This document shows, one piece after another, positions 2,760-34,868 of a DNA stretch of 34,868 nucleotides. Positions within the stretch are counted from its first letter, which is position 1. Each line of letters opens with the position of its first letter. The notes below the pieces were generated by a model. It saw only the letters and a program-made list of their open reading frames with translations, ran no database searches and was not told the origin of the DNA. Source of the stretch: a virus; IMG/VR virus record IMGVR_UViG_3300041409_000649, positions 1 through 34,868 of that record. One strand, 5' to 3'. The position numbers and the translations under genes are program-made.

Positions 2760-3302
2760 GTGACCAGTACGCAGCCGCCTCCGCAGCCCGAGTGGGGCAA
2801 GCTCATCCAGGCCCGCCGTGAGCAGCAGGGCCGGTCCGCTAGACAGGCCGCCCTGATGGCAGACGTCTCCAACGCCTACTGGGGGCAGGTCGAGAAGGGC
2901 TACGTCTCGGTCGGCGGTGAGTATCGGCCCGTGACGCCTACGCGCCGGACGTTGCTGGCGATCTGCGACGCCCTCCGGATGACCCCGAAGGAGACGCAGG
3001 CGGTGCTCGCTGCAGCCGGCCACAAGGGCTACGTGCCCGGCGACATGAAGGCACCGCGCGAGAGCGAGGTCGACCTGACCGGTCTGTCGCGGAAGGACGT
3101 CGCGCTGCTCAACGCGATCGCCGACCGGTTCCGCGAGGGCGTGGAGGTCGCGGACGTGGTGCCGCTGACGGTGGAGCCGACGCCGCTGCGCCGCGTCGCC
3201 TCAGGACGACCGACGCGGCCGGCGCCGGAGCGCGAGACCGCGGCGGAGCGGAAGGCGCGCGAGGCCGCGAAGAACAACCCGCACGGGCGGAGGTCGAAGT
3301 GA
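2760..3302 (+). CDS. XRE-family immunity repressor (C1-like)
   Basis: A 180-residue protein starting at GTG 2760. Residues about 12-80 form a Cro/C1-type helix-turn-helix (LIQARREQQGRSARQAALMA, then SNAYWGQVEKGY, then RRTLLAICDALRMTP). The C-terminal part is charged and apparently flexible (AERKAREAAKNN), without a recognisable LexA-type peptidase domain. Self-cleavage is therefore unlikely, and regulation probably depends on the next gene, an ImmA-like protease. It is first in a rightward operon and diverges from the Cro-like gene across the operator region. The stop overlaps the next start (GTGA, 3299-3302). The repressor role is inferred from position, fold and partner. Confidence 0.85.
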   Translation: MTSTQPPPQPEWGKLIQARREQQGRSARQAALMADVSNAYWGQVEKGYVSVGGEYRPVTPTRRTLLAICDALRMTPKETQAVLAAAGHKGYVPGDMKAPRESEVDLTGLSRKDVALLNAIADRFREGVEVADVVPLTVEPTPLRRVASGRPTRPAPERETAAERKAREAAKNNPHGRRSK

Positions 3303-3721
3303 TCGACCCCGGCGAGCTCGCCCTGCGCATCCCGTCCCTGACGATCACGACGGCGCTGCTACCCGACGGCGTGAAGGCGTACTACTACCCGGAGATCGAC
3401 ACGATCGTCCTCGACGAGCGCCTGTCCGAGGCCGAGAAGCGGTGCGCCGTCATGCACGAACTCGTTCACAGGCAGCTCGAGCATGACCTGCCGGAGGGCT
3501 TCGACAAGTGGCAGGAGAAGCGTTGCCGCGAGATCACAGCCCGCGCGCTGATCAACATCTACGACTACGGCGACGCCGTCATGTGGTCTGACGACCCCGT
3601 CGAGCAGGCCGAGCACCTGGTGGTGGACCCGGACACCCTTGAGGACCGCAAGAACGCACTCACGGCCGACGAGGACGGGTACCTGCGCGCGCTGCGCGCG
3701 CGGGCGGAGGGAGCAGCGTGA
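3299..3721 (+). CDS. ImmA/IrrE-family metallopeptidase (anti-repressor protease)
   Basis: A 140-residue protein with a zincin motif HELVH at residues 53-57 inside AVMHELVHRQLEHD, where the two histidines and the glutamate would bind zinc and activate water. In ICEBs1 and several phages ImmA proteases cleave the adjacent XRE repressor to trigger induction. Here the gene directly follows the repressor gene with a GTGA overlap (3299-3302), the same arrangement. The rest (DTIVLDERLSEAEK before the motif, helical segment after it) fits a minimal IrrE-like domain. The family assignment is firm from motif and context; that the neighbour repressor is its substrate is inference. Confidence 0.85.
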   Translation: MIDPGELALRIPSLTITTALLPDGVKAYYYPEIDTIVLDERLSEAEKRCAVMHELVHRQLEHDLPEGFDKWQEKRCREITARALINIYDYGDAVMWSDDPVEQAEHLVVDPDTLEDRKNALTADEDGYLRALRARAEGAA

Positions 3722-4371
3722 CCACCACCGCGTGCCGCGCATGCGGCGGGGTCGTCTCGTTGAACGCGGCGACTTGCCCGCACTGCGGCGAAGGTCATCC
3801 GTCGGGTTCGGGGCGCCCTCCGCGTGGTTCCAGGCGGATGTGGCTTCTGCCCGCTGTCATCGCAGCCGTGGCCCTCGCTGCTGCCGCGGCGTGGCTCGTC
3901 ACAAGAGGCAGCGATGACTCGCGCACGCTGACAGCAGGCGACGTGGAGCGGGAGTTGGCCAGCGGGCTGCCCGGGTCGCCCCAGGTGTTCTGCCCCGGCC
4001 CGATCCCACTAGACCGCGGCAAGATCGTCGACTGCGTTGCATGGCGACGGGGGGAGGGGCCGAGGTACGTGCGCGTCACGCAGGATGACGACGAGGGTCA
4101 CTACTCCTTCAAGTTGACCGGCCAGAACGCGCCGCCCCCACCAAAACTCTGCCGCGAGGTGACCAGCGGCATCCCCGCCGCCGCTGGCGAGACCGACCTC
4201 GCTTTGCGAGTACAGCCGGCCGGCGGGACCGACCTGTCCCAGGCGCAGGTGGAGGAGATCACTCGCACGCGCGAGGCTCTGCTCGCCCTGGTGAACGATG
4301 CGGCGAAGGCAGGCTGCAGCATTGACGGGCTCATCAGCGACCCGCTCCGACAGGTGTTGAAGATCCCGTGA
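3718..4371 (+). CDS. Zinc-ribbon single-pass membrane protein in immunity operon
   Basis: A 217-residue protein. Residues 6-23 form a zinc ribbon with Cys6, Cys9, Cys20 and Cys23 (CRACGG, then CPHCG). A basic linker is followed by a transmembrane helix at about 42-62 (LLPAVIAAVALAAAAAWLV). The rest should be outside the cell: a domain of about 150 residues with paired cysteines (FCPGPI, DCVAW, KLCREV, AGCSIDG) that resembles the small DUF4333-like extracytoplasmic domains of actinobacteria, although I am not sure of that name. It is coupled to its neighbours by GTGA overlaps on both sides. A membrane protein made from the repressor transcript would be present in lysogens, which suggests superinfection exclusion or envelope sensing; this is inference. 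Confidence 0.75.
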   Translation: MTTTACRACGGVVSLNAATCPHCGEGHPSGSGRPPRGSRRMWLLPAVIAAVALAAAAAWLVTRGSDDSRTLTAGDVERELASGLPGSPQVFCPGPIPLDRGKIVDCVAWRRGEGPRYVRVTQDDDEGHYSFKLTGQNAPPPPKLCREVTSGIPAAAGETDLALRVQPAGGTDLSQAQVEEITRTREALLALVNDAAKAGCSIDGLISDPLRQVLKIP

Positions 4372-4616
4372 CCGAGCTCAGCGGCGACGAGCAGGCGATG
4401 CTGGCGTTCGAGCGCAGCTGGTGGAAGTACGCCGGCGCGAAGGAGAGCGCGATCCGGGAGCAGTTCGGGATCAGCGCCACCGCCTACTACCAGCGCCTCG
4501 GGCGGCTGATGGAGCGGCCGGAGGCGTACATGCACGACCCGGTGCTGGTGAAGCGCCTCCGCCGACTCCGTGAGACGCGCGCGGCCGCACGGCGGGGGCG
4601 GGCCGCCGCGTCGTGA
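4368..4616 (+). CDS. DUF3263 family protein
   Basis: An 82-residue protein with the typical DUF3263 pattern: LSGDEQAMLAFERSWWKYAG, then KESAIREQFGISATAYYQ, then a DPVLVKRLRRLRETRAAARR tail. The family is small, almost confined to actinobacteria and usually chromosomal. The middle of the protein looks like a helix-turn-helix and the tail is strongly basic, so DNA binding is likely. It sits between the membrane protein and the serine recombinase with GTGA overlaps at both ends, so it is made together with the integrase. It could be an accessory DNA-binding factor for integration or immunity; no function is established for the family as far as I know. Confidence 0.85.
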   Translation: MTELSGDEQAMLAFERSWWKYAGAKESAIREQFGISATAYYQRLGRLMERPEAYMHDPVLVKRLRRLRETRAAARRGRAAAS

Positions 4617-6115
4617 GCGCGCAGCGGCGGCTCCGCGCGGTCACGGACGCGCCATTGCGGTTCGGTATCGCCGTCCGGGTCTCCCGCGTCATGGGTCGTG
4701 GCGGGGACACGTTCCACAGTCCGGAGACGCAGGAGACGGCCGCGCGCCGCGCCGTCGTTGCCGCCGGCGGCGTCGTGGAGGAAGGCGTCGGCGCCAGCGG
4801 CGTCTTCTTCGACCTCGACGTGTCCGGCGCGATCGCGCCGTCCGACCGACCCGGCCTCGGTGAGGCGCTCGAACTGGTCCGCGCCGGCAGGCTGGACGGG
4901 ATCGCGCTGTACGACCTGTCGCGCTGGTCCCGCGAGACCGTCGCCGGGCTGCGGGAGCTCGAGCAGGTCGCCGCTCTCGGCGGGCAGGTGCTGTCCGCCT
5001 CGGAGACGATCGACCTCGCAACCCCCGCCGGCCGCTTCTCCACGACCGTGCAGCTCGCCGCGCACCAGATGCGCCGCGATGAGGCGTCGCGGGCGTGGCG
5101 GGCGACCCACGCCGCCCGGCATGAACAGGGCAAGCCACACGGCACCGTGCCCCTCGGCTACCTCCGCCATGACGGGCAGGTGATCGTCGACCCCGTCCTC
5201 GGCCCGGCCGTGCGGCAGGCGTTCCTCGACTACGCCGCCGGGCTCGTCTCGCAGATGGACATCGCGAAGCGCCTCGGCCCGCTGCGCGGCCGGCGGGTGT
5301 GGCAGTCGACGGTCAGCGACATGCTCCGCTCACCGTTCTACATCGGACAGGTGCGGCTCAACGGGCAGACCGCGCCCGGCCGGCACGAGCCGCTCGTCGC
5401 CGACGAGGTGTGGCATGCCGCCCGCCGTCGCCTTGAACGGGAGGGGCAAGGCCCCGTCCGGGTCCGCAGCGCGTCGCACAGCCTCGCCGGGCTCCTCGTC
5501 TGCGACCTCTGCGACCACGCGATGTGGCAGCGCAAGCCGGGCTATCAGCGCGAGCACCTCGGCAGGCCGGTGCTCGTCACGTGCAGGACGAAGCGGGAGA
5601 CCGGCGGCTGCGCCGGGGTCGGCACGCCCCGGTTCGACCTGATCGAGCAGGAGGTCCTCGCCGCCGTCCTCCGCGACGCCGCACGGCTACGGTCCGACGC
5701 GAACGCGCTCGCTGCCCGCCAGTCCGAGCAGGCACGGGCGACCGTGGACGTCACTGGCCTGCGCGCTGAGCTCGCCGAGCTCGAAGCCGCGGTCGGCCGG
5801 GCGGGGGTGCTCCTTGCGCGCGCAGTGATGACGGAGAGCGCCTACCAGTCGACGGTCAGTGAACTCGACGAGGCAGCGGCGAGCGTGCGGGCGCGGCTCC
5901 TCGCGGCGGAGGACACCGCGACGGCACCGCGACCGGCCGCGCTGCTCAACGCCGCCGAGCAGCTCGAGCGGCTGTGGCCGAGGATGACCTCCACGGAGCG
6001 GCGAGCCGCGCTTCGGCCGTTCGTGTCGCAGGTCCGGGTCGGCCCGACGGAGCGTCGCGGCCAGCCGATCGCTGAGCGCCTGGACGTGCTCGACCACCAG
6101 AGGAGACCCATGTGA
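4613..6115 (+). CDS. int: Large serine recombinase (phage integrase)
   Basis: A 500-residue protein with the full large-serine-integrase layout. An N-terminal catalytic domain holds Ser24 as likely nucleophile (AVRVSRV) and the DLSRWSRE block at 101-108. A recombinase domain follows (about 175-275, including STVSDMLRSPFYIGQ). A zinc ribbon has Cys297, Cys300, Cys324 and Cys333. A coiled coil (about 350-430) sits in the C-terminal DNA-binding region. Length and motifs suggest an active enzyme that joins attP and attB in one direction. Unusually, it lies within the immunity operon, starting at GTG 4613 over the previous stop, with no gap on either side that could hold attP. A second, unrelated integrase lies at 27243-28166. 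Confidence 0.95.
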   Translation: MSAQRRLRAVTDAPLRFGIAVRVSRVMGRGGDTFHSPETQETAARRAVVAAGGVVEEGVGASGVFFDLDVSGAIAPSDRPGLGEALELVRAGRLDGIALYDLSRWSRETVAGLRELEQVAALGGQVLSASETIDLATPAGRFSTTVQLAAHQMRRDEASRAWRATHAARHEQGKPHGTVPLGYLRHDGQVIVDPVLGPAVRQAFLDYAAGLVSQMDIAKRLGPLRGRRVWQSTVSDMLRSPFYIGQVRLNGQTAPGRHEPLVADEVWHAARRRLEREGQGPVRVRSASHSLAGLLVCDLCDHAMWQRKPGYQREHLGRPVLVTCRTKRETGGCAGVGTPRFDLIEQEVLAAVLRDAARLRSDANALAARQSEQARATVDVTGLRAELAELEAAVGRAGVLLARAVMTESAYQSTVSELDEAAASVRARLLAAEDTATAPRPAALLNAAEQLERLWPRMTSTERRAALRPFVSQVRVGPTERRGQPIAERLDVLDHQRRPM

Positions 6116-6159
6116 CGAGCTACGTGGCCATCAACGTCCCCCGAACACGCCACACATGA
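6112..6159 (+). CDS. 15-codon bridging ORF between integrase and excisionase genes
   Basis: A GTG at 6112 overlaps the integrase stop (GTGA). The frame reads MTSYVAINVPRTRHT and stops at 6157-6159, where it overlaps the ATG of the next gene (ATGA). It exactly bridges the gap between two genes using the same start-stop coupling as the rest of the operon. It may act as a translational relay rather than encode a functional peptide; it is too short to judge by composition. Confidence 0.35.
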   Translation: MTSYVAINVPRTRHT

Positions 6160-6332
6160 CCGACGAGGATCCGTGGCTGTCACCGTCCGTGATCGCCGAG
6201 GAGTGGGATTGCTCGACCGACACGGTTCTGCGAGCGGTGCAGCGGGGCGATCTCCCGGCATTCCGCTACGGACGGCTAGTACGGGTACGGCGCAGCGACC
6301 TCGACGCCTTCGTCGCGAAGCACCGCAGCTAG
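6156..6332 (+). CDS. xis: Excisionase-like HTH (HTH_17/MerR-type) protein
   Basis: A 58-residue protein that is one winged helix-turn-helix: LSPSVIAEEWDCSTDTVLRA, then VQRGDLPAFRYGRLVRVRR, then SDLDAFVAKHR. This is the standard excisionase or AlpA-like HTH_17 pattern. Such proteins usually serve as recombination directionality factors for tyrosine integrases, yet here the gene is coupled to a serine recombinase. It might direct the serine enzyme, act in trans on the tyrosine recombinase at 27243-28166, or be a regulator. ATG 6156 overlaps the bridging ORF. The TAG stop shares CTAG (6329-6332) with the stop of the convergent holin gene. Confidence 0.8.
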   Translation: MTDEDPWLSPSVIAEEWDCSTDTVLRAVQRGDLPAFRYGRLVRVRRSDLDAFVAKHRS

Positions 6333-17859: not shown

Positions 17860-18198
17860 ATGAGCCTCGTGAACTGGCACACCGTCCGCGCCGGATGGAC
17901 CCCGGAGGGTCACGTCATGGAGGTGATGCACGAGATGACCGACCGGGTGATGCCGATCTTCGAGGACATGCTGCAGGAGTGGCTCGACTCCCAGGCCGTC
18001 ATGTTGATGGCGGCCGTCGTGCCCGCGTACATCAGGATCGAGGGACACGAGCTGCTGAACGTCGACCCGCTTGAGCTCCGCGCCAGCGTCAACGACGCGG
18101 CGGAGCGGGCAAACGCGCTCGTCGACGAGCAGATCGCTCAGGAGCAGCCGCGGATCAACAACTTCGTCGCGCAGCTCCGCCTCGGCTTCATCGAGTAG
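17860..18198 (+). CDS. Plus-strand moron gene inside the head module, unknown function
   Basis: A 112-residue protein and the only plus-strand gene outside the immunity operon, lying between late cassette A and the 18255-19067 gene. It is mostly helical and acidic, unusually Met-rich in its first half (eight Met in the first 50 residues, including VMEVMHEMTDRVMP). A more hydrophobic patch at 47-57 is followed by a helix (ASVNDAAERANALVDEQIAQ). No cysteines, signal peptide or clear membrane helix are seen. I do not recognise it. An independently promoted gene facing against the late operon is the usual form of a moron expressed from the prophage, for example for exclusion of other phages or host fitness; that is inference. 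Confidence 0.7.
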   Translation: MSLVNWHTVRAGWTPEGHVMEVMHEMTDRVMPIFEDMLQEWLDSQAVMLMAAVVPAYIRIEGHELLNVDPLELRASVNDAAERANALVDEQIAQEQPRINNFVAQLRLGFIE

Positions 18199-27242: not shown

Positions 27243-28166
27243 TCATCCGGCGGCGCCCGCGAGGAAGGACGCGACGCGGTGGCTCGCGTTCCGATCGAAC
27301 GAGCGCGCTGCCATGTCGTAGATCGCCGTGGTGTTGGGGCTTGAGTGTCTGAGGGCGAGTTGCATGTCCCGGAGGGGGACGCCTGAGAGCAGGCCGCTGG
27401 TGGCGAAGGTGCGGCGTAGGGCGTGGGGTGGGACGTGCTTCTCGAGGTGGGCGGTGCTGGCGATGCGCTGCAGCATCCGATTCGCCGATGCGCGGTCGAG
27501 CCGGCGTCCTTGGGTGTTCACGAGGAGCGGCCCCTCGGTGCGGGTGCCGATGACGGCCTTGAGCGCGCGCACAACCGGAAGGGGCAGCGGGACGATGGCG
27601 TACTTGCTGCCCTTGCCCATGAAGCGGATGGTGTCGTAGCCCTGCTCGACCTGCATGCTCTCGACGTTGAGGCTGCACGCTTCGCTGATGCGGAGTCCTG
27701 ACAGCCCGAGCAGCGAGACGAGGGCTGTCTCGGTCGGCCCCATCTTCCGGGCGCCTTGCAGCAGCTGGCCGAACTCGAGGGTGTTGAGGAACGGGCGGTG
27801 TTGCTCGTCGCGGTTGACCTTAGGGCGTTCCACGCTGACGGCCGGGTCTTTCGCGATGAGGTCGTCGAGGGCGGCGTACTTGTAGAAGCCGGCGACGACG
27901 GTGACGCGGCGGCTGATGGTGCTGGTCGCCCAGCCGGTCTGCTCGAGCCAGCGGACGTACAGCTCGACGTGTCCGCGGAGGGCCCGCAGCGGGTGGAGGC
28001 TGTTGCGGTCGCACCAGTCGAGGTAGACGCGTAGGTCGGTTGTGAAGTCGCGGAGGGTGCTGCCGCGGTAGCGGCTGAGGTAGCCGGCGATGGCGAGCTT
28101 GAGCGGGTCGCGGGACACCAGGTCGTGTCCTACGTCGTAGGTGCTGATGGTGGTCGTAGCGTTCAT
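27243..28166 (-). CDS. Tyrosine recombinase (integrase or XerC/D-like resolvase)
   Basis: A 307-residue protein with an N-terminal SAM-like core-binding domain (about 20-110) and the catalytic domain. All catalytic residues are visible: Arg159 (LSGLRISEAC), Lys185 (MGKGSK), His248 and Arg251 (PPHALRRTF), His274 (LRHSSPNTT) and Tyr283 (TTAIYD). It therefore looks active. Size and the compact layout are XerC/D-like. GAGGAG precedes the ATG at 28166. It sits at the border between early genes and terminase, not next to the excisionase-like gene, and is the second integrase-type enzyme of this phage. A dif-like inverted repeat lies 41 bases upstream. Confidence 0.93.
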   Translation of the reverse strand: MNATTTISTYDVGHDLVSRDPLKLAIAGYLSRYRGSTLRDFTTDLRVYLDWCDRNSLHPLRALRGHVELYVRWLEQTGWATSTISRRVTVVAGFYKYAALDDLIAKDPAVSVERPKVNRDEQHRPFLNTLEFGQLLQGARKMGPTETALVSLLGLSGLRISEACSLNVESMQVEQGYDTIRFMGKGSKYAIVPLPLPVVRALKAVIGTRTEGPLLVNTQGRRLDRASANRMLQRIASTAHLEKHVPPHALRRTFATSGLLSGVPLRDMQLALRHSSPNTTAIYDMAARSFDRNASHRVASFLAGAAG

Positions 28167-32445: not shown

Positions 32446-32615
32446 GGCCGATCACCGCGAACGGAGTCGCTCTTAGCGGCCGTGTCGCACGGGTGCGGGT
32501 ATGGGCCGCCGAAGGGGTGGTCGAACGTGCAGGTCAGGTCGTGGCAGGCGCTGGCGTCGTGATGCTGCTGGCGCGTGTGACCCGCCGGTCCGTACTCGCA
32601 GCAGGGTTCGCTCAT
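32442..32615 (-). CDS. Small Cys/His-rich protein, 57 aa
   Basis: A 57-residue protein from ATG 32615 (ATGA overlap with the methylase stop) to 32442 (GTGA overlap with the nuclease start). It is Cys/His-rich throughout: EPCCEYGPAGHTRQQHHD, then ACHDLTCTFDHPFGGPYP and HPCDT. It probably binds zinc. Function unknown; start-stop coupling on both sides argues for a real gene. Confidence 0.6.
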   Translation of the reverse strand: MSEPCCEYGPAGHTRQQHHDASACHDLTCTFDHPFGGPYPHPCDTAAKSDSVRGDRP

Positions 32616-33481
32616 GCCGCCCCCTCGCTGTCAGTCAGCAGCGCGTCGGGCTCGGGAAACGGCCGGTTGCCCCACAGGACCTCGGTGCGGTCGCCCTCTC
32701 CGGTGTTGCTGTTGCCGCTGAACGCCTTGAGCGTGGCGACGTGCCATCCGTCGTACAGGTCCTCGTACAGCGGCGAGGCGTAGCCGCTGAGGACGACTGC
32801 GGCGCGACAGGACCTCAGCGCGTCGGCTAGGCGGGCGTGGTCGTCAGGTGCGCCCATCTCGTGCCGGTAGCCGCTGCTGTTGCGCGACGAGCGCAGGTAC
32901 GGCGGGTCCACGTAGAGCAGCACGTCGTCGTGCCGCCCGAACCGGGCGATGATGTCCAGTGCGTCCCGACATTCGAGCGTGACCGCGCGCAGGCGCAGCG
33001 CAGCTGGTGGCATCCGCTCGACGTAGCCGCGCAGGTAGCGGGGGAACGAGGACGACGACCCGGCGGGATCCTGGTAGTGCCGCCACCCGGTGATCCGCAG
33101 CGTCGAGGACCTGGATTGCGTGAGCAGCACCCACACGCGGCGGGCCCGCTCTAGGTCACTGCATGCCCCGTCGAGGTCGCGCGCCGCTGTGAACTCCGCT
33201 CGGCTGTGCGGCGTGAGCGCGGCAGCTGCTACGAGCTCGTCCGGCCGGTCACGGAGGACCTGCCAGAACGTCATGAGGTCGCGGTCGAGGTCGTTCACCG
33301 TCTCCATGCGGGACTGCGGCTTGGCGAGCAGCACCGCGAGGCCTCCGGCGAACGGCTCGACGTAGTGCTCGTGCTCGGGCAGCAGCGCGACGATGCGCTT
33401 GGCGAGGCTGGTCTTGCCGCCGTAGTAGGTGAACGGCGGCTTGAGCGGCGCTACCGAGGCGCCCTTCGTGTCCGACGTCAT
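32612..33481 (-). CDS. dam: DNA adenine N6-methyltransferase (D12/Dam class)
   Basis: A 289-residue protein with the D12-class motif order: FTYYGGKTSLAKRI (N-terminal binding motif), VEPFAGGLAVLL (SAM-binding motif I), ETVNDLDRDLMTFW (acidic motif II), and the catalytic DPPY at 192-195 in LLYVDPPYLRSS. It transfers a methyl group from S-adenosylmethionine to adenine. No restriction enzyme gene is next to it, so it is an orphan methylase that probably protects phage DNA from host restriction or marks it. Start ATG 33481 overlaps the preceding stop (ATGA). Confidence 0.93.
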   Translation of the reverse strand: MTSDTKGASVAPLKPPFTYYGGKTSLAKRIVALLPEHEHYVEPFAGGLAVLLAKPQSRMETVNDLDRDLMTFWQVLRDRPDELVAAAALTPHSRAEFTAARDLDGACSDLERARRVWVLLTQSRSSTLRITGWRHYQDPAGSSSSFPRYLRGYVERMPPAALRLRAVTLECRDALDIIARFGRHDDVLLYVDPPYLRSSRNSSGYRHEMGAPDDHARLADALRSCRAAVVLSGYASPLYEDLYDGWHVATLKAFSGNSNTGEGDRTEVLWGNRPFPEPDALLTDSEGAA

Positions 33482-34708: not shown

Positions 34709-34868
34709 GCGCGTGCCCGCTGCCGGGGGAGGACCGTCACGTTCGACGGCGCCCGCTGCGTTCCCGCGTCGGCCAGCCCTGCGGCGTACCCGTTGCGGTA
34801 GGCGCGGCCGGCGTACACCGCCAGCAGGAGCAGGCTGTACGCGATGAGCGAGCCCAGCACCAGCAGGA
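34705..34868 (-). CDS. Small membrane protein, C-terminal part (spans circular join)
   Basis: C-terminal portion of the 62-residue protein whose start lies at base 94 of the left end. Within this end the frame runs from inside the terminal repeat to a TGA at 34705 (ATGA overlap with the HTH gene). It carries the membrane segment and the tail GRAYRNGYAAGLADAGTQRA. On the linear window it appears truncated at the right edge only because the circle was opened inside the gene. Confidence 0.75.
   Translation of the reverse strand, partial: LLVLGSLIAYSLLLLAVYAGRAYRNGYAAGLADAGTQRAPSNVTVLPRQRARA
34800..34868. repeat. Terminal direct repeat, right copy (circular overlap)
   Basis: Identical to bases 1-69. 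Removing one copy gives a circle of about 34,799 bp. See the left copy for interpretation. Confidence 0.9.

Follow-up and report, generated by a model that had tools for sequence, protein, structure and literature searches.

A temperate actinobacteriophage is the probable source of the window, that is, the whole stretch of 34,868 nucleotides analyzed here (IMG/VR record IMGVR_UViG_3300041409_000649), and the gene block at positions 2760–6332 probably constitutes its lysogeny operon. The core of this block (repressor-M78-DUF3263-integrase) recurs among actinophages as a lysogeny cassette; unusual here, in an otherwise known cassette, are the insertion of a membrane-protein gene and the location of a serine integrase behind DUF3263 on the same strand. 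The first 69 bases of the record are identical to the last 69 (1–69 and 34800–34868). Hence, the genome is circular and measures 34,799 bases when closed, and the lysogeny operon is therefore complete and present whole. On the plus strand, the order is XRE repressor, M78 protease, single-pass membrane protein, DUF3263 protein, serine integrase, a 15-codon ORF and an excisionase-like protein. The minus strand holds nearly all the remaining genes, and a cro-like XRE gene is divergent from the repressor.

All six genes named in the initial annotation were found where it had placed them, and they are real genes, given that dozens of phages carry homologues in the same arrangement. The plus-strand genes are contiguous without a gap from 2760 to 6115. 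The start/stop overlaps, GTGA at 3299, 3718, 4368, 4613 and 6112 and ATGA at 6156, are positioned exactly as first annotated; the overlap at 6112, however, opens the 15-codon ORF (6112–6159, plus strand) and not the Xis-like gene as had been supposed. This ORF has a strong Shine-Dalgarno sequence (AGAGGAG), its stop codon shares bases with the start codon (ATG) of the Xis-like gene, and it is a possible leader that couples this gene. The integrase stop and the Xis-like start at 6156 are 40 nt apart, and this stretch is a candidate place for attP. The attP site itself was not located, and neither attL nor attR was present among the sequences found for comparison. An imperfect GTGGC/GCCAC repeat within 6116–6155, seen by eye, was dropped as an attP candidate as it is too short to mean anything. 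A rough gene call of the genome shows 4-nt overlaps at 16 of the 45 junctions between same-strand genes; being this common, such an overlap supports co-translation yet is no special mark.

The candidate immunity repressor (2760–3302, plus strand; 180 aa) has an N-terminal HTH that scores 27.0 bits with HTH_31, exactly at the cut-off, and 2.5e-4 with HTH_3, and it exhibits no protease-type (self-cleaving) C-terminal domain. TAL-effector matches to the repressor were set aside, as no stretch passes on its own. A homologue (110 bits) is present in L039 (IMG/VR 3300033168_000202), a distant relative, beside the L039 homologue (83 bits) of the Cro-like XRE regulator encoded here at 2253–2561 on the minus strand (HTH_3, 7.7e-10). 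The predicted lytic (cro) promoter, TTGACA-17-CATAGT, lies on the minus strand at 2568–2596, with identical hexamers and spacing at the equivalent place in L039. Because this near-consensus promoter ends 6 nt before the ATG of the cro-like gene at 2561, the transcript is probably leaderless. The intergenic region between the cro-like gene and the repressor (2562–2759) is a putative divergent operator region, with GCGAAC half-sites at 2574, 2621, 2689 and 2708 and inverted repeats at 2617–2639 and 2687–2715. L039 contains five GCGAAC in 156 bp, and no 6-mer was common to both regions as often in 500 mononucleotide shuffles. There is good evidence that the GCGAAC sites are operators of this repressor family, since L039 combines homologous Cro and repressor with a promoter of identical hexamers and spacing and with abundant GCGAAC. 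The repressor would shut the cro promoter and thereby the lytic operon. A consensus scan yielded no plus-strand promoter, the repressor's own included, and internal promoters are therefore possible. In mycobacteriophages whose immunity depends on integration, attP lies within the repressor gene and the viral form of the repressor bears a degradation tag; the C-terminus of the repressor described here reads NPHGRRSK, and no ssrA-like end was seen.

The M78 (ImmA/IrrE) metalloprotease (3299–3721, plus strand; 140 aa) contains the sequence HELVH, and HExxH is invariant among the eight phages compared. The Peptidase_M78 match (PF06114, 1.2e-5) amounts to 25.5 bits versus a cut-off of 22, and phrog_87 is matched at 1.1e-14. 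In ICEBs1, the XRE repressor ImmR is followed by the M78 protease ImmA, which inactivates ImmR. The same succession of XRE repressor and M78 protease is seen here, whereas the host, the integrase type and the regulators of induction differ. By analogy, the phage protease would probably inactivate the repressor on induction, as the repressor carries no self-cleaving domain.

The DUF3263 protein (4368–4616, plus strand; 82 aa) matches PF11662 at 8.7e-35 (118.9 bits) and is predicted to be a NapA-family DNA-binding protein. The best PDB match by sequence and by fold is 9n2n, Mycobacterium tuberculosis NapA (Rv0430) on AT-rich DNA (3.6e-24), with 61–64% identity in the fold alignment. The NCBIfam NapA model NF053843 gives 106.7 bits, below its equivalog cut-off of 160; judged by these scores, the phage protein is a relative of NapA rather than the same orthologue. 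Fold and sequence family are thus common to both proteins, whereas the M. tuberculosis gene is chromosomal. M. tuberculosis NapA is reported to prefer AT-rich DNA, to form stiff filaments and to regulate a virulence operon (PMC7177045, PMC10665949). By analogy, the phage NapA-like protein may coat or stiffen DNA and tune the switch, the recombination complex or both. At 72 of 80 loci on actinobacterial chromosomes (L181–L260), the gene behind NapA/DUF3263 encodes a transmembrane (TM) protein whose ectodomain is of the LytR_C type, an arrangement matched by the Rv0430-Rv0431 pair (PMC3000826). A DUF3263 scan of GTDB genome contigs gave chromosomal NapA-type genes only, with flanks that lack M78 and integrase; for this reason, neither a prophage with the full operon nor att sites were obtained. 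Positions 5995–6672 of L039 (plus strand) hold one 225-aa ORF comprising DUF3263, a lipobox/TM, a Ser/Thr/Pro-rich linker and an Excalibur domain.

The large serine integrase (4613–6115, plus strand; 500 aa) contains Resolvase, Recombinase and Zn_ribbon_recom (zinc beta-ribbon) domains, all over cut-off (PF00239, PF07508, PF13408), and matches phrog_95 at 1.2e-68. A single-sequence search of IMG/VR and GTDB genomes revealed no close relatives. The enzyme would insert the phage DNA, and the 58-aa excisionase-like HTH_17 protein (6156–6332, plus strand; PF12728, 1.5e-11; TIGR01764, 39.7 bits versus a cut-off of 28.8) is its likely directionality factor. The phage carries two different site-specific recombinases, serine and tyrosine. 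The second, an apparently intact tyrosine recombinase (27243–28166, minus strand; PF00589, 1.4e-25), retains the R, K, HxxR, H and Y residues, is located on the lytic strand and shares ~45% identity with Arthrobacter phage integrases. It could be the working integrase. In L068, a serine integrase beside DUF3263 is accompanied by a homologue of this second recombinase. Five relatives by portal protein (L010–L014, 43–46% identity), some of whose records are fragments, exhibit no M78, DUF3263, serine recombinase or tyrosine recombinase; the cassette may be absent from this structural lineage or lost. A lone plus-strand ORF with a good coding score (17860–18198; 112 aa; no Pfam match) lies inside the minus-strand head-tail genes and is possibly expressed in lysogeny, and a D12-class adenine methyltransferase gene (32612–33481, minus strand) is located in the early region.

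A tblastn search with the DUF3263 protein identified 123 phage records, mainly from Gordonia and Mycobacterium phages. Annotated repressor, variable genes, M78, DUF3263 and integrase are found in Tortellini, Sejanus, Mycofy1 and Sbash, and the integrase is reversed in Azula, Lucky10 and CarolAnn. IMG/VR loci and annotated phages together yielded 77 distinct modules with M78 upstream of DUF3263 on the same strand, distinctness being defined by identity of the last 80 M78 residues; in 57 of these the two genes overlap or lie within 10 nt of each other, with start codons that are approximate. The next integrase is a same-strand tyrosine enzyme in 24 modules, an opposite-strand tyrosine enzyme in 24, an opposite-strand serine enzyme in 11 and a same-strand serine enzyme in one, which is this phage; the remaining 17 modules have no integrase within 1 kb or reach the contig end. 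When counted from M78, there are 71 distinct loci, 30 with DUF3263 and 41 without, and five of these 41 have a same-strand serine integrase. In L097, a repressor-like gene, M78 and a serine integrase follow one another in order, with a 4-nt overlap between the last two. Core-gene order and strand in the present phage are those of the actinophage repressor-M78-DUF3263-integrase cassette, and comparable precedents exist for each pairwise coupling, whereas the exact combination has none within the sequences searched. The initial annotation knew of no described phage switch with exactly this gene set; the four-gene core proved to be a common actinophage cassette. Separation of the genes in relatives, which the annotation had named as a refutation, is indeed seen as regards the membrane protein, DUF3263 and the integrase type.

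The proposal of one coupled lysogeny operon is supported by expression data on a related cassette. RNA-seq of the Sbash lysogen showed genes 40–43 (integrase, DUF3263, IrrE-like and repressor) as one expressed group adjoining attL, and Sbash gp43 alone confers immunity (PMC6426596). The Sbash/Tortellini cassette resembles that of the present phage in gene order, strand, the divergent Cro-like gene and the M78-DUF3263-integrase overlaps. It differs in having a tyrosine integrase and a gap of ~60 nt between M78 and the preceding gene, and in lacking both a membrane gene between M78 and DUF3263 and a Xis-like gene behind the integrase. L067 (IMG/VR 3300031447_000102) also supports the proposal, as it has the divergent Cro-like gene and, on one strand, the same coupled order of repressor, M78, membrane protein, DUF3263 and integrase; in contrast, its integrase is a tyrosine enzyme, its ectodomain is unrelated and no Xis-like gene is shown. 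L039 shares, in addition to the homologous repressor and Cro, the identical cro promoter and the putative GCGAAC operators, the 4-nt overlaps of repressor-M78-DUF3263, but it has no separate membrane gene, its DUF3263 is fused to a lipobox/TM-Excalibur tail and its integrase is of the tyrosine type. The Gordonia phage CarolAnn contains the same set of Cro, repressor, cargo, M78, DUF3263 and serine integrase, although the cargo (gp44/gp43, RexAB-like defence) precedes M78 and the serine integrase lies on the opposite strand. Its defence genes 43/44 are co-transcribed with the repressor, gp43 being a four-TM membrane protein, and the text gives genes 43–45 as lysogen-expressed without listing M78, DUF3263 or the integrase (PMC6426606). 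Because CarolAnn differs from Sbash, the integrase-repressor link varies between phages and the core may not form a single transcript in all of them.

Two other readings concern the gene packing and the target of the protease. The overlaps might reflect nothing but a compact genome, with the integrase and the membrane gene having internal promoters of their own or being used in different states. The abundance of 4-nt overlaps noted above would be compatible with mere packing, as would the gaps of >40 nt before M78 in 27 of 41 modules and the opposite-strand position of the integrase in 35 of the 60 modules where one was found; given the strictly contiguous plus-strand genes from 2760 to 6115 and the joint expression of the four core genes in the Sbash lysogen, however, we consider this reading improbable. 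It is also improbable that the protease has the NapA-like protein, and not the repressor, as its target, such that M78-DUF3263 would be a regulatory pair and the repressor would be controlled otherwise. Phage DUF3263 nearly always has M78 just upstream, usually overlapping, the gene upstream of M78 is within 10 nt in only 8 of 41 modules, and the repressor could be dealt with by antirepressors such as those that related phages encode. Nevertheless, DUF3263 is absent downstream in 41 of the 71 distinct M78 loci, most of which go straight to the integrase, the repressor is coupled to M78 in both the present phage and L039, and the annotated early genes near the switch of this phage include no antirepressor. 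One lysogeny operon with a protease probably directed at the repressor is the preferred reading.

The single-pass membrane protein (3718–4371, plus strand) comprises an N-terminal zinc ribbon with two CxxC pairs (CRAC/CPHC), one TM segment at approximately residues 43–61 (hydropathy 2.4) and a weakly DUF4333-like ectodomain whose match is sub-threshold (E 0.023). The AlphaFold model, computed from one sequence, is poor (pLDDT 61.5). No relatives were found by tblastn against phages or by single-sequence search of IMG/VR; no defence-protein model matches the protein, and PADLOC returned nothing for any cassette protein. Most modules have no membrane gene between M78 and DUF3263. Where the insert is large, all six loci found (this phage, L052, L060, L067, L091 and L095) encode a single-pass membrane protein; several have a short cytosolic zinc-ribbon or DUF2510-type end, five of the six genes, that of this phage among them, overlap the end of M78 by 4 nt, and the ectodomains are dissimilar and unrelated, that of L067 with a possible, weak HNH motif (E 0.045). 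The smaller inserts (49–85 aa) have no TM segment. Small soluble ORFs of 49–53 aa, most ending in ADPEGxEWGA, occupy the position in L021, L035, L061 and L090. By a rough gene call, a TM segment is present in 4 of the 21 cases of genes intervening between repressor and M78. The membrane protein would be cargo in a variable slot, produced by virtue of its place on the repressor message, and is most likely a lysogenic-conversion or superinfection-exclusion protein. Exclusion cargo is preferred because the slot is variable and dispensable and has a defence precedent in the CarolAnn cassette; the absence of any matching defence-protein model counts against it.

The initial annotation had instead suggested that the membrane protein and the protease pass an outside or envelope signal to the repressor. 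Signaling from the membrane protein to the protease is a weak proposition; the function of the protease does not need the membrane protein, since M78 and DUF3263 overlap or lie within 10 nt in the great number of modules counted above (57 of 77). In a broader form, the membrane protein would read an outside signal and act on the NapA-like protein or the protease, shifting the lysogeny decision, with the NapA-like protein as the more likely partner. Such an envelope-sensing switch is unlikely, but it would account for the consistent single-pass topology of the six large inserts, the zinc-ribbon or DUF2510-type cytosolic ends of several and the start of five genes 4 nt inside the M78 stop, and it has a host parallel in the 72 of 80 NapA-LytR_C loci resembling Rv0430-Rv0431 (PMC3000826). 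The in-frame fusion of DUF3263 to a lipobox/TM and Excalibur ectodomain in L039 also points in this direction, although it is a single case and could be due to a lost stop codon. Most phage M78-DUF3263 pairs, in contrast, have no membrane protein, the unrelated ectodomains, including that with the weak HNH motif, suit exclusion better, and the genes co-transcribed with the CarolAnn repressor, one of which encodes a membrane protein, are phage-defence genes (PMC6426606). We consider it quite unlikely that the exchangeable membrane-anchored ectodomain is a sensing arm that controls the NapA-type protein and thereby prophage silencing or integration, as a one-operon envelope-to-nucleoid switch with the host NapA-LytR_C operon as its chromosomal counterpart. 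Exclusion is more likely than envelope sensing.

In the literature searched, DUF3263 is mentioned in a cyanophage genome paper only, and nothing was found that describes the cassette as a whole beyond the Sbash expression data and the CarolAnn neighbourhood. The present analysis identifies DUF3263, a widespread unnamed actinophage gene, as encoding a predicted NapA-family nucleoid protein of phages that is linked with an ImmA-type protease in a common lysogeny cassette, and this pairing provides a testable role for both proteins. Furthermore, the slot between M78 and DUF3263 is a defined place in which to seek new prophage cargo, probably exclusion proteins.
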